Below, one piece after another: positions 1-51,944 of a stretch of DNA of 64,000 bases. The notes under the pieces were generated by a model. It had not been told where the DNA came from, made no database searches, and saw nothing but the letters and a program-made list of their open reading frames with translations. Both the position numbers and the translations under genes were made by a program. This DNA comes from Geobacteraceae bacterium. Lineage in GTDB: Bacteria > Desulfobacterota > Desulfuromonadia > Geobacterales > Pseudopelobacteraceae. Position 1 is the stretch's first letter. Each line of letters opens with the position of its first letter. The stretch lies in assembly GCA_025355965.1 (NCBI GenBank), contig JANXYR010000060.1, positions 1-64,000 on the forward strand. The letters run 5' to 3'.

Positions 1-134
1 ATTAAGCAGCTAGTGCAATAGGAGTGTTATAATTGTCGGCAATTAATGCCGTGCAGGTTTATTAAGGTCGGCCACCTGCCCCGACCCGGTGCTCCCCAGA
101 TTTTCAATTCCCCGTCGAAACCTTTACGTCCCCC
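1..134 (-). ncRNA. ssrA: tmRNA (ssrA), 5' part, cut by the window edge
   Basis: Transfer-messenger RNA rescues stalled ribosomes together with SmpB. Read on the minus strand from about 134, it opens with a G run and the conserved GGTTTCGACGGGG block. An H-type pseudoknot (PK1) follows: GGTCGG pairs with CCGACC, and GCAGGT in the loop pairs with ACCTGC (+ strand 53-58). Twelve nucleotides later comes a resume codon GCC (38-40) opening the tag frame ADNYNTPIALAA and a TAA stop (2-4). The spacing, the pseudoknot and the -ALAA tag ending are all typical. The 3' half, with the tRNA-like acceptor end, lies outside the window. It sits just downstream of smpB, its protein partner. Confidence 0.93.
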
Positions 135-49714: not shown

Positions 49715-50659
49715 ATGACGCAACAGAGCAAAATACTTCTTGAAAGCGATACTAACGAACTTGAAATAGTTGAGTTCAGAATTGACGAAGTTGACTGGAA
49801 TGGCAACGTACTCCCTTGTTACTACGGTGTTAATGTAGCTAAGGTCCGTGAAATTATCCGTTTGCCACAAATGTCACGGGTGGTAAATGCCAAGCCGGGT
49901 GTTGAAGGAATGATCAAGCTGCGCGACAAGGTTATTACTATTATTAATCTTGCGACGGTACTGAATAAATCTACCGGGGATCTTGTGGCAGACCGAGTCG
50001 TGGTCCTAGAGTTTAACAATCTGATGGTGGGGGTTCTGGTCCATTCTGTTTCCAGAATTTACCGAATTTCATGGAAGAACGTAGAAGCCCCAGCGGCATC
50101 CGTCCATAGTGATGAGGTTACCGGTCTTGTTAAAATGGATGATCGGATTATTTTGGTGCTTGATTTTGAGAAGATTGTTGCTGAGCTCTGTTCTGAAAGT
50201 GCTCTAAAGCCGCTTGACTCTCTTATGATGAATCGCGCGGAGTCTAACCCGGAACGTGAGAGTAGAACTATTCTGGTTGCTGATGACTCAGTTTTTATAC
50301 GCAAGACTCTCTGTAGCAGTCTCAGATCTGCCGGATACTTAGTTGTTGAGGCAGAGAATGGTGCCGAGGCATGGAGCATTATTCAGGAAGTTCTTCAAAA
50401 AGTGGCTCAAGGAGGTGGGACGTTCCGTGATCATATACACATGATGATTACGGATGTTGAAATGCCACAAATGGATGGTCTCCATCTTACTTCGCTTGTA
50501 CGCAAGGAAGATTCACTGAAGGACATGCCCATAGCTATTTTTTCCTCACTTGCTTCGGAAGATAATAAACGCAAATGGATCGGACTGGGTGCCAACTGTA
50601 TTTTGACCAAACCTGATTTGCCGAAACTGGTCGATGTAGTAGATGAATTAACCGCGTGA
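49715..50659 (+). CDS. cheV: chemotaxis protein CheV (CheW-receiver fusion)
   Basis: Couples chemoreceptors to CheA and adapts by phosphorylation. The 314-residue protein has an N-terminal CheW domain (residues about 15-165: VLPCYYGVNVAKVREIIRLPQMSRV, GMIKLRDKVITIINLATVL) and a C-terminal receiver domain (about 183-312) with acidic pocket LVADDSVFIRK, phospho-acceptor Asp in MMITDVEMPQMDG and TKPDLPKLVDV with the conserved Lys. No other che genes are nearby. A TATACT -10-like element lies at 49680-49685 with only a weak -35. Confidence 0.9.
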   Translation: MTQQSKILLESDTNELEIVEFRIDEVDWNGNVLPCYYGVNVAKVREIIRLPQMSRVVNAKPGVEGMIKLRDKVITIINLATVLNKSTGDLVADRVVVLEFNNLMVGVLVHSVSRIYRISWKNVEAPAASVHSDEVTGLVKMDDRIILVLDFEKIVAELCSESALKPLDSLMMNRAESNPERESRTILVADDSVFIRKTLCSSLRSAGYLVVEAENGAEAWSIIQEVLQKVAQGGGTFRDHIHMMITDVEMPQMDGLHLTSLVRKEDSLKDMPIAIFSSLASEDNKRKWIGLGANCILTKPDLPKLVDVVDELTA

Positions 50660-50666
50660 TTCTAGC

Positions 50667-50696
50667 TTGACAACTGGCATGTCTCTGTGATTTAGT
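50667..50696 (+). promoter_or_regulatory. promoter of the aroF attenuator transcript
   Basis: A perfect -35 TTGACA (50667-50672), an 18-bp spacer, and a -10-like TTTAGT (50691-50696). Transcription from it would begin about 50702-50705, at or within a few bases of the ATG of the leader peptide, implying an almost leaderless leader-peptide message. Assigned by eye. Confidence 0.5.
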
Positions 50697-50704
50697 ACCT
50701 AACT

Positions 50705-50791
50705 ATGAACTCAAACCGCTTCTACATCGCTTTCAGCTTTTACTTTTGGTTCGGCTTTTATTTCAGGCCGTCTGCCCGGGTAGAGGTGTAA
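50705..50791 (+). CDS. aromatic leader peptide of the aroF attenuator
   Basis: An open frame of 28 codons plus TAA. Residues 6-20 read FYIAFSFYFWFGFYF: seven Phe, three Tyr and one Trp, so 11 of 28 residues are aromatic. Such density is the hallmark of an attenuator leader peptide (compare pheA and pheST leaders). Codons 22-25 (CCG TCT GCC CGG) form the 5' half of an antiterminator with the terminator arm downstream. No clear ribosome site precedes the ATG. The gene after it is DAHP synthase, the entry enzyme to all three aromatic amino acids. Confidence 0.85.
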   Translation: MNSNRFYIAFSFYFWFGFYFRPSARVEV

Positions 50792-50831
50792 GCGAGGAAG
50801 CTATTACACGAAACCACAAACCGGGGCAGAC
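50770..50831 (+). promoter_or_regulatory. antiterminator and pause structures of the aroF attenuator
   Basis: GTCTGCCCGG (50770-50779, inside the leader peptide) is complementary to CCGGGGCAGAC (50821-50831) except for one bulged G. That second segment is also the 5' arm of the terminator, so the two pairings exclude each other. Between them an internal hairpin, GTGTAAGC with GC(TA)TTACAC (50786-50809), begins at the leader stop codon. A ribosome stalled early in the aromatic codons leaves 50770-50779 free (readthrough); one reaching the stop codon covers it (termination). Confidence 0.8.
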
Positions 50832-50851
50832 GAAAGTCTCCCCGGTTTTTT
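50819..50851 (+). terminator. attenuator terminator before aroF
   Basis: A strong intrinsic terminator: AACCGGGG-C-AGAC (50819-50831) pairs with GTCTCCCCGGTT (50836-50847) around a GAAA tetraloop, with one bulged C, running into TTTTTT (50846-50851). It lies 74 nt upstream of the aroF start, so it must be bypassed for aroF expression. Confidence 0.88.
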
Positions 50852-50874
50852 ACTGTCTGTGCATCAGATGGGTC

Positions 50875-50898
50875 AGAGCCGGGGAAACTTCCGGCTCT
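50875..50898 (+). other. second hairpin just upstream of the aroF ribosome site
   Basis: A perfect 8-bp stem AGAGCCGG/CCGGCTCT (50875-50882 with 50891-50898) with an 8-nt loop ends 11 bases before the GGGAAAGGA ribosome site of aroF. It could stabilise the 5' end of readthrough mRNA or affect initiation; a weak T-rich stretch follows. Confidence 0.5.
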
Positions 50899-50924
50899 AA
50901 TTGTTTGTGGGAAAGGATCAGAAA

Positions 50925-51944
50925 ATGATTATTGTAATGAAAGCAGGAGCTGCAAAGAAAGACAAAGATGAAGTTCTGAAACGTATCAAAGAGTTGGGCT
51001 ATACGTCACATGTAATTCATGGTGCGACGCGTGACGTGATCGGTGCGATTGGTGATGAGCGTGCCAAGTCCGCTCTGCAGGCGTTGGAATCTCTGCATGG
51101 TGTGGAGAATGTTGTTCCAATCCTGCAACCGTATAAACTGGCTTCACTTGAAGTCAAAAAGGAGTCCAGCGTGGTACGTATCAGTGACAGTGTTGTCATA
51201 GGTGGCTCGCAGATTGTTGTCATGGCAGGCCCTTGCTCGGTGGAGAGTGAGGAACAGATTCTAGAGTCTGCTCTTGCAGTAAAAAAAGCCGGAGCCCATA
51301 TTTTGCGGGGTGGGGCATTCAAGCCGCGCACCTCACCCTATTCCTTCCAGGGGCTTGAAGAGGAAGGGTTGAAGCTGCTGGCCAAGGCGCGTGATTTGAC
51401 TGGCCTTCCTTTTGTGACGGAAGTTATTAATCCGGAAACAGCCGAAATGGTGGCGGAGTATTCCGATATACTGCAGATTGGTGCCAGAAATTCACAGAAT
51501 TTTGCGCTGCTCAAAAAAGTTGGTCAGCTTGGCAAACCGGTCCTCTTGAAACGGGGGATGGCTATGACAATTCAGGAGTTGCTGATGAGTGCTGAATATA
51601 TTATGAGTGAGGGCAACCAGTCCGTGATTCTTTGCGAACGTGGTATCCGCACCTTTGAGACTGCCACTCGTAATACCCTTGATTTATCGGCGATTCCGGT
51701 TCTGAAAGGAAAAACTCATCTACCGGTTGTTATTGATCCATCACATGGTACCGGTAATCATCATTATGTGGCTCCAATGTGTTATGCGGCGGTAGCAGCG
51801 GGGGCAGACGGATTGATAGTAGAAGTACACCCGGACCCGGAACACGCATCATCTGATGGTGCCCAGTCTCTGAAACCGGTCAAATTTGATATAATGATGC
51901 AAAAGTTGCGGCTGTTTGCCGAGGCGGCCGGAAGGAATCTTTAA
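50925..51944 (+). CDS. aroF: 3-deoxy-7-phosphoheptulonate (DAHP) synthase, type I beta with ACT-like N-terminus
   Basis: Condenses phosphoenolpyruvate and erythrose-4-phosphate, the first step of the shikimate pathway. The 339-residue protein has an N-terminal ferredoxin/ACT-like regulatory domain (residues 1-70, [20 protein letters not shown]) as in Thermotoga DAHPS, and the TIM-barrel core with [52 protein letters not shown] and DPSHGTGNH. It is controlled by the aromatic attenuator at 50705-50851. ATG 50925 follows GGGAAAGGA. Confidence 0.95.

Follow-up and report, generated by a model that had tools for sequence, protein, structure and literature searches.

The window, a 64,000-nucleotide stretch of Geobacteraceae DNA, carries upstream of the DAHP synthase gene aroF an element that, judging from its sequence, is very probably a transcription attenuator. 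The complete explanation, in which a ribosome translating an aromatic-rich leader couples aromatic amino acid supply to DAHP synthase and a relay between successive hairpins completes the response, is also held with high confidence. The features involved, in window coordinates, are:

50667..50696, forward strand: predicted promoter with conserved boxes, TTGACA (50667-50672) and the extended -10 element TGA-TTTAGT (50688-50696)
50705..50791, forward strand: leader open reading frame; its Trp is codon 15, and the Trp codon is invariant in the order alignment
50718..50801, forward strand: protector hairpin (segments 1:2), found in the minimum free energy structure and by covariation
50769..50781, forward strand: antiterminator arm A (segment 2), leader codons 22-26, pairing with 50820-50832; 95.8% of alignment cells paired
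50818..50851, forward strand: predicted terminator T1, or H1 (segments 3:4), with its U-run, sequence AAACCGGGGCAGACGAAAGTCTCCCCGGTTTTTT; 92.9% of cells paired
50840..50884, forward strand: putative relay helix C:D (segments 4:5), T1 3' arm (50840-50847) with T2 5' arm (50877-50884)
50853..50871, forward strand: linker hairpin between T1 and T2 (CTGTCTG/CAGATGG), with at least five predicted pairs in 71 of 75 Geobacterales
50875..50898, forward strand: second hairpin T2, or H2 (segments 5:6); 96.0% of cells paired; its U-run is poor here
50814..50910, forward strand: putative clamp, CCACAAAC (50814-50821) with GTTTGTGG (50903-50910), in the minimum free energy structure
50925..51944, forward strand: aroF, the regulated gene, DAHP synthase with an N-terminal ferredoxin-like domain (PF00793, PF18152, NF006421)

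The leader frame (50705-50791, forward strand) encodes MNSNRFYIAFSFYFWFGFYFRPSARVEV in 28 codons, 11 of them aromatic (7 Phe, 3 Tyr and 1 Trp), and both this composition and its position agree with the original prediction. Within the 64 kb window it is the sole open reading frame of 10-60 codons with at least eight aromatics per 15 residues (it has 11), and frames with at least ten aromatics were found in none of 40 first-order Markov copies of the window. The aroF product scores 283.6 bits against PF00793 and 74.9 bits against PF18152; translation likely starts at the ATG at 50925, preceded by the ribosome site AAAGGA (50912-50917). The upstream neighbour encodes a protein with CheW and response-regulator domains, cheV by domain make-up, which ends at 50659 in the same direction and leaves a gap of 45 bp before the leader. 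Farther upstream lies a divergent trpE-trpG pair, named by eye from the sequence; the region upstream of this trpE is without an aromatic-rich leader. The same genome has another DAHP synthase of this type, with 54% identity (G000:C62:12469-13449; L082, L150), directly after a gene that by eye resembles a Crp/Fnr-type regulator, and a search of the region upstream of this second gene found no aromatic-rich leader.

A leader frame rich in codons for the products of the pathway, a terminator, an antiterminator exclusive with it and a protector are all found here. The GC-rich terminator with a T tract that had been placed after the leader is confirmed at 50818-50851, as T1, a predicted intrinsic terminator between the leader and aroF. 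Its 5' arm had been proposed to pair with leader codons 22-25; the pairing holds, and its extent is corrected to 12 pairs over codons 22-26 (50769-50777 with 50824-50832, and 50779-50781 with 50820-50822). The antiterminator arm lies 8-20 nt 5' of the leader stop, under a ribosome sitting there. The protector extends from codon 5 to beyond the stop codon: its aromatic codons are base-paired both to the last part of the leader and to AAGCGAGGAAGC past the stop, an arrangement that hides the antiterminator arm. The fold of 50705-50860 has a predicted energy of -57.9 kcal/mol (z -4.56, 200 shuffles).

Covariation was assessed in an alignment of 75 sequences from the Geobacterales, 66 from the family and nine others, all picked for having the leader; the names of this order and of the phyla below (Desulfobacterota, Rokubacteria and relatives) are those that we take to apply, resting on named loci. 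In this alignment, doubly changed cells number 16 in the antiterminator against 5.1 in shuffles, 32 in T1 against 13.2, and 65 in the protector, in which 83.4% of cells are paired, against 38.8. Counted as doubly changed pairs, the protector has 19 against 14.1 (sd 1.7) in shuffles, while the three in the antiterminator and the three in T1 are no excess, since 110 and 209 of 500 shuffles, respectively, have at least as many. In the slide control, one slid version of the protector gave 68 doubly changed cells against 65 in register. The mutually exclusive helices appear to covary across the 75 Geobacterales, less clearly by some of these measures than by others.

The proposed sequence of events runs as follows. 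When the leader is untranslated, or is read to its stop, the arm at 50769-50781 would be held in the protector or covered by the ribosome; with the arm unavailable, T1 would form and most transcripts would end at about 50851. A shortage of Phe-, Tyr- or Trp-tRNA would stall the ribosome at or before codon 18 and open the protector; a stall at codon 18 or earlier is estimated, from the usual ribosome footprint, to free the arm. The freed arm would then pair with the T1 5' strand before the T1 3' strand is made. The second hairpin, through its 5' strand, would capture the T1 3' strand left free in turn, and this relay would lock the antiterminated state and undo the second hairpin, so that aroF would be transcribed. 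The frame, the exclusive helices, their covariation and their phylogenetic spread are read directly from sequence; we infer that stalling and readthrough occur, that these amino acids are the relevant ones, and that the relay and the clamp are used in vivo.

Folding predictions bear on the timing of these events. In the free window RNA up to T1, T1 has a predicted probability of 0.999, and with a stalled ribosome on RNA ending at T1 its predicted equilibrium probability is still 0.998. When the stalled-ribosome RNA is extended to 50905, the antiterminator is predicted at 0.84 and the relay at 0.94, with T1 at 0.06. The antiterminator beats T1 in 21 of 75 relatives when the second hairpin is left out and in 36 of 75 when it is included. 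Because equilibrium folding cut at T1 favours T1, kinetics must settle the decision at this point, the usual assumption for classic attenuators; in these models, the relay would stabilise antitermination afterwards.

The family is represented by 76 genomes, and an aroF ortholog was identified in 70 of them (E<=1e-120). Upstream regions were compared for 67 family loci including the window, with three partial aroF matches left out, and the leader is kept in 66 of the 67. At the remaining locus, L113 (G004:C87:85466-85966), aroF follows straight after cheV, and leader, promoter and terminator are gone; it is a natural deletion of the attenuator. Searched as DNA, the attenuator matches 70 of the 76 genomes, once in each save for two matches each in G018, G027 and G062. 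Among the 75 aligned Geobacterales leaders, rows chosen for having a leader, Phe, Tyr and Trp are each present in all 75, and all 75 reach a stop after 20-48 codons. The invariant Trp codon also pairs in the protector and is therefore no proof of Trp sensing on its own. Variation at codon positions 1, 2 and 3 of the leader is 0.135, 0.216 and 0.227. The second and third positions are almost equally variable; on this measure the frame signal is faint and the peptide is only weakly constrained. The comparison proposed at the outset, of the aromatic codons and the two exclusive pairings in relatives, has accordingly been run, and the idea survived it.

Beyond the family, aroF relatives at E<=1e-95 were found in 177 of 297 genomes drawn from the phylum. 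A candidate aromatic leader is present in 47 of 82 upstream regions and absent in 35, the 82 including five loci of the family that had been counted before and second copies of the gene, at least two in number (L237, L240); seven loci for which the gene start was not found were left out (L159, L170, L172, L174, L176, L177, L179). Chance may account for a few of the 47 candidate frames, such as L167. After most of the leaders at these loci comes a terminator with a 5' arm complementary to the leader end. The 47 leaders outside the order that entered the swap tests described below contain all three aromatic residues in 37 cases and Trp in 42. The arm GTCTGCCC reads Pro-Ser-Ala in Geobacterales and Val-Cys-Pro in Syntrophus-like leaders; because it is read in different frames, it is the RNA, not the peptide, that is kept there.

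The swap tests compared each locus's own duplex with duplexes made from strands of different loci. From 125 parsed loci, 50 entered the set (the window itself with two near relatives, and 47 outside Geobacterales), with identical rows dropped and with L210 (by hand), its twin L051, L017, and L032 (the twin of L202) excluded; the permutations leave phylogeny in. Own antiterminator duplexes score -18.4 against -15.9 for swapped ones, a difference matched in 0 of 10000 permutations, and swapping within classes of like core gives -16.4 against the same -18.4 (0 of 20000). These own-versus-swapped comparisons across the phylum, with leader conservation and covariation, support the logic of ribosome-mediated attenuation that had been proposed for the window.

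Among further named loci, 14 of 54 have a candidate leader. They include the Deltaproteobacteria L032, L051 and L065, a Deferribacteraceae MAG (L043), four Candidatus Rokuibacteriota (L033, L035, L038, L042) and, read by eye, three Planctomycetes (L052, L071, L074). The candidates at L026, L044 and L053 were taken for chance frames. Oryzomonas japonica carries a leader too, at L009. The locus search covered regions upstream of DAHP synthase genes, apart from the search with the attenuator DNA. By sequence, a candidate architecture of this kind recurs before DAHP synthase in other Desulfobacterota, in Rokubacteria and, by eye, in Planctomycetes. One clade of leaders ending in PPVG or PPMG (L192, L193, L200, L207, L212, L213, L216, L224, L225, L226) has its own arm sequence with a matching terminator, and most of its loci are without a stable second hairpin. 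At L193, a stretch downstream of T1 still agrees with the T1 3' strand in 13 of 14 positions, which looks as though a relay had been reduced to its capture strand.

The leader-terminator architecture that had been described for the window stands but is incomplete: a chain of helices is found where a single terminator had been seen. The protector, the second hairpin with its relay, the clamp and the promoter position are additions to that description. The second hairpin has 38 doubly changed cells against 12.7 in shuffles in the 75 Geobacterales, and its 5' strand together with the loop is complementary to the T1 3' strand. A second hairpin is common between T1 and the aroF ribosome site: by automatic picks, some of which run over the U-run, 30 of 48 scored loci show such a hairpin within 45 nt at -14 kcal/mol or lower. 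The linker hairpin could bring the two relay strands together.

For the relay helix itself, 96.3% of cells are paired in the 75 Geobacterales, with four doubly changed cells against 0.6 in shuffles. A shift by one column raises the count from four to 15 and gives a higher score, so the relay signal is ambiguous within this order. Across the 50 distinct loci of the swap set, own relay duplexes have -20.9 kcal/mol against -17.0 for swapped ones (0 of 10000 permutations). Part of this signal is cheap, because the relay cores CCGG and CCATGG are palindromic; when strands were swapped within core classes, one of which ('oth', four loci) is mixed, the swapped value was -19.1 against -20.9 (0 of 20000; 50 loci). 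Beyond the palindromic core, in 29 loci and without stratification, own extensions score -4.5 against -3.2 (3 of 20000). The role of the relay is less certain in Geobacterales because the U-run of the second hairpin is poor there, and its use in this order is given an even chance.

The weightiest evidence for the relay comes from the phylum of L038, for which 95 genomes were searched, 90 of them with the gene (E<=1e-120), and 50 upstream regions were taken. A two-hairpin pattern is present in 30 of these 50 Rokubacteria-type regions; this pattern count is used here, and the automatic picks sometimes took T2 as T1, or the C:D hairpin as H1. In all 30 loci, the ten nucleotides after the first hairpin contain 0-3 T (mean 1.0), and those after the second contain 5-8 (mean 7.0). 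An aromatic-rich leader with at least five aromatics precedes the pattern in 28 of the 30, the exceptions, L287 and L289, having two to three aromatics in the frame before the hairpin. The hairpin formed by C, linker and D is predicted to be stabler than H1 in 24 of the 30 and stabler than H2 in 28. By its sequence, the first hairpin of these loci should not act as a usual intrinsic terminator. As it has no U-run and yet leader, arm and hairpin are kept, the signal would pass through the first hairpin to the second, and the relay is probably used in these leaders. Other loci of the same phylum differ: a U-run follows both hairpins in L273, L274, L275, L276, L278 and L280, of which L275 and L276 were read by eye, their leaders being below the search threshold; a U-run follows the first hairpin only in L284 and L286; and the pattern is absent from the other loci of the 50, such as L277, L279 and L281-L283, in which no leader was seen. 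At six Rokubacteria loci (L265, L268-L272), repeated GC-rich units (GGAGCCGGGTCGC...CTCAGGCCACCCTCGG) lie between the attenuator and aroF.

One competing account is a plain trp-type attenuator of three hairpins, in which the second hairpin would stabilise the mRNA or serve as a spacer and the relay would be a product of the palindromic cores. It draws on the poor T2 U-run of the window, on the loci without a stable, U-run-bearing H2 (most of the PPVG clade, L284 and L286), on the trivial mutual pairing of CCGG and CCATGG cores, and on the higher covariation score of the one-column slide. However, own relay duplexes are stronger than swapped ones within core classes and also in the extensions beyond the core. 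The 30 Rokubacteria-type loci weigh against it as well: their H1 is without a U-run, and the leader would apparently have nothing to control if there were no relay. The C-linker-D hairpin is stabler than H1 or H2 in most of them. We consider the plain three-hairpin account unlikely, though it deserves to be kept in mind.

Two further accounts dispense with attenuation by the leader altogether. The hairpin could be the ordinary terminator of cheV, with the aromatic frame arising by chance and aroF transcribed from an unregulated promoter; the same orientation of cheV and its end only 45 bp before the leader would suit this. Such a frame, however, is missing from all 40 Markov windows, conserved promoter-like boxes lie between cheV and the leader, and the element occurs also in other phyla. 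Within the up to 1300 nt covered upstream, cheV was found at 5 of 24 named loci, which makes the element independent of cheV, and leader, arm and terminator persist at the 19 others. Conservation leads us to reject the combination of chance frame and cheV terminator, which is scarcely credible. The remaining account takes the RNA for a metabolite-sensing riboswitch, a T-box or a protein-binding element in which the frame is incidental; it could appeal to the elaborate conserved structure, including linker hairpin and clamp. Yet at gathering score Rfam gave no match in the attenuator region, and no T-box, riboswitch or amino acid leader; at E<=10, the seven matches in 50500-51000 are all far under gathering, none being an amino acid leader. 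One of the models, the Guanidine-I riboswitch, reaches 13.3 bits on the opposite strand, chance level given a gathering score of 63. The aromatic codons, present in 75 of 75 leaders, and the position of the arm in the last leader codons, within reach of the terminating ribosome in most of the loci listed, also speak against this account, which we regard as very improbable. Ribosome-mediated attenuation with a relay is the reading retained here.

A broader version of the relay attenuator can be offered tentatively, at somewhat less than an even chance. The element would be an old and widely shared pan-aromatic relay attenuator, in which pairing 2:3 frees segment 4 and segment 4 captures segment 5, with the result that the two terminators open jointly. 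Both would persist in several Desulfobacterota and some Rokubacteria relatives, the second alone in Rokubacteria and the first alone in the PPVG clade, L284 and L286, and Geobacterales would have added a leaderless start and the clamp as a possible third, translational gate.

The leaderless start is predicted from the promoter. TTGAC is present in 73 of 75 Geobacterales, and in 71 of 75 the leader ATG lies 30-32 nt beyond the last base of the -35 box; a Shine-Dalgarno-like 4-mer precedes the leader in 1 of 75 Geobacterales against 18 of 47 loci outside the order, leader starts having been picked by rule for both the spacing and the Shine-Dalgarno counts. A consensus promoter scan, which demands A at the second -10 place, missed 50667..50696. 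Transcription is predicted to start at about 50702-50704, no more than about 3 nt from the leader ATG, and it is because of this promoter spacing that the Geobacterales leader is predicted to be leaderless; the same is not predicted in several other orders.

The clamp nests around T1, the linker hairpin and T2 and adjoins the aroF ribosome site. No covariation was detected for it on unadjusted MAFFT columns. Because these columns look out of register there by eye, clamp duplexes anchored on the hairpins were used, and own duplexes score -10.7 against -8.3 (sd 0.25) for swapped ones (0 of 20000). Together with the antiterminator, the clamp would make a pseudoknot. Our guess is that it may reduce translation of transcripts leaking past T1 and T2. 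A leader-peptide attenuator of C. glutamicum, that of ilvBNC, was reportedly described by Morbach in 2000. The available text of PMC11857589 presents it as a three-hairpin attenuator whose leader peptide is without a ribosome binding site; it differs from the present element in responding to branched-chain amino acids, and neither a second hairpin nor a clamp is described in that text.

The kind of regulation proposed here is known, and the three-aromatic relay element is a variant of it: leader-peptide attenuation is well established and aroF leaders are in print for other bacteria. Attenuators of trp, pheA and pheST consist of leader codons, protector, antiterminator and terminator, and the window element is like them in all four. 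Unlike them, it has three aromatic amino acids in one leader, the common entry enzyme as its target, an additional second hairpin and, in Geobacterales, a predicted leaderless start. The pheA attenuator is listed in a table of PMC2659441; the same source, in its available part, lists or hypothesises for aroF of Shewanella and E. coli an 'attenuator sensing tyr-tRNA' (citing Camakaris 1980), so that attenuation by an aromatic tRNA has likewise been proposed there, the table naming Tyr only. In C. glutamicum, another phylum, an attenuator was proposed before a DAHP synthase gene with an aroF leader for which the accessible text names only Phe-Tyr-Phe (PMC4046766). The Acholeplasma uORFC-13-1 motif (PMC8632094), likewise a proposed attenuator, is described, in the part available, as an upstream frame with Phe and a terminator, always before aroF, in 24 representatives; going by that description, it is set apart by a ribosome site, a U run coding at least one Phe and the lack of a three-amino-acid leader. 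The element was not known at the outset as a described family in its group. This holds for Geobacter and Desulfobacterota, for which no aroF attenuator was found among the matches listed in partly accessible open literature (subscription papers and supplements being outside the scope), while the printed C. glutamicum and Acholeplasma leaders qualify it more widely. The main text, as available, of an ncRNA scan that includes Geobacter contains no aroF (PMC11109978).

The closest parallel to the relay is the his operon leader of Salmonella and E. coli, which has six segments, A-F, with B:C and D:E formed in opposition to E:F, according to the available text of PMC4046918. Like that leader, as described there, the present element has a peptide with control codons and an early antiterminator that frees a strand able to capture the 5' strand of a later terminator. 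Unlike it, the control codons are those for Phe, Tyr and Trp, and the first hairpin is already a terminator in the window, as in several other Desulfobacterota, with two hairpins gated in series; the Rokubacteria-type loci match the his arrangement. In the window, the strand freed from the middle hairpin is predicted to pair with the last hairpin's 5' strand, less clearly so in the Geobacterales columns, and the last hairpin is not the only terminator, the first bearing the U-run and the second a poor one. The window element is partly his-like in its working, yet it is not classed as a his-type leader.

These comparisons suggest that leader-peptide attenuation of DAHP synthase is a recurrent and widely spread device. 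To our knowledge, aromatic regulation has been little studied in the phyla concerned. The lineages missing one or the other U-run amount to a natural experiment on an antitermination relay between hairpins, and the predicted leaderless leader raises the question of how ribosomes would load quickly enough to match RNA polymerase. Elsewhere in the window, a partial tmRNA gene (RF00023) lies at the edge (1-133, reverse strand) and is the window's sole Rfam match at gathering score.
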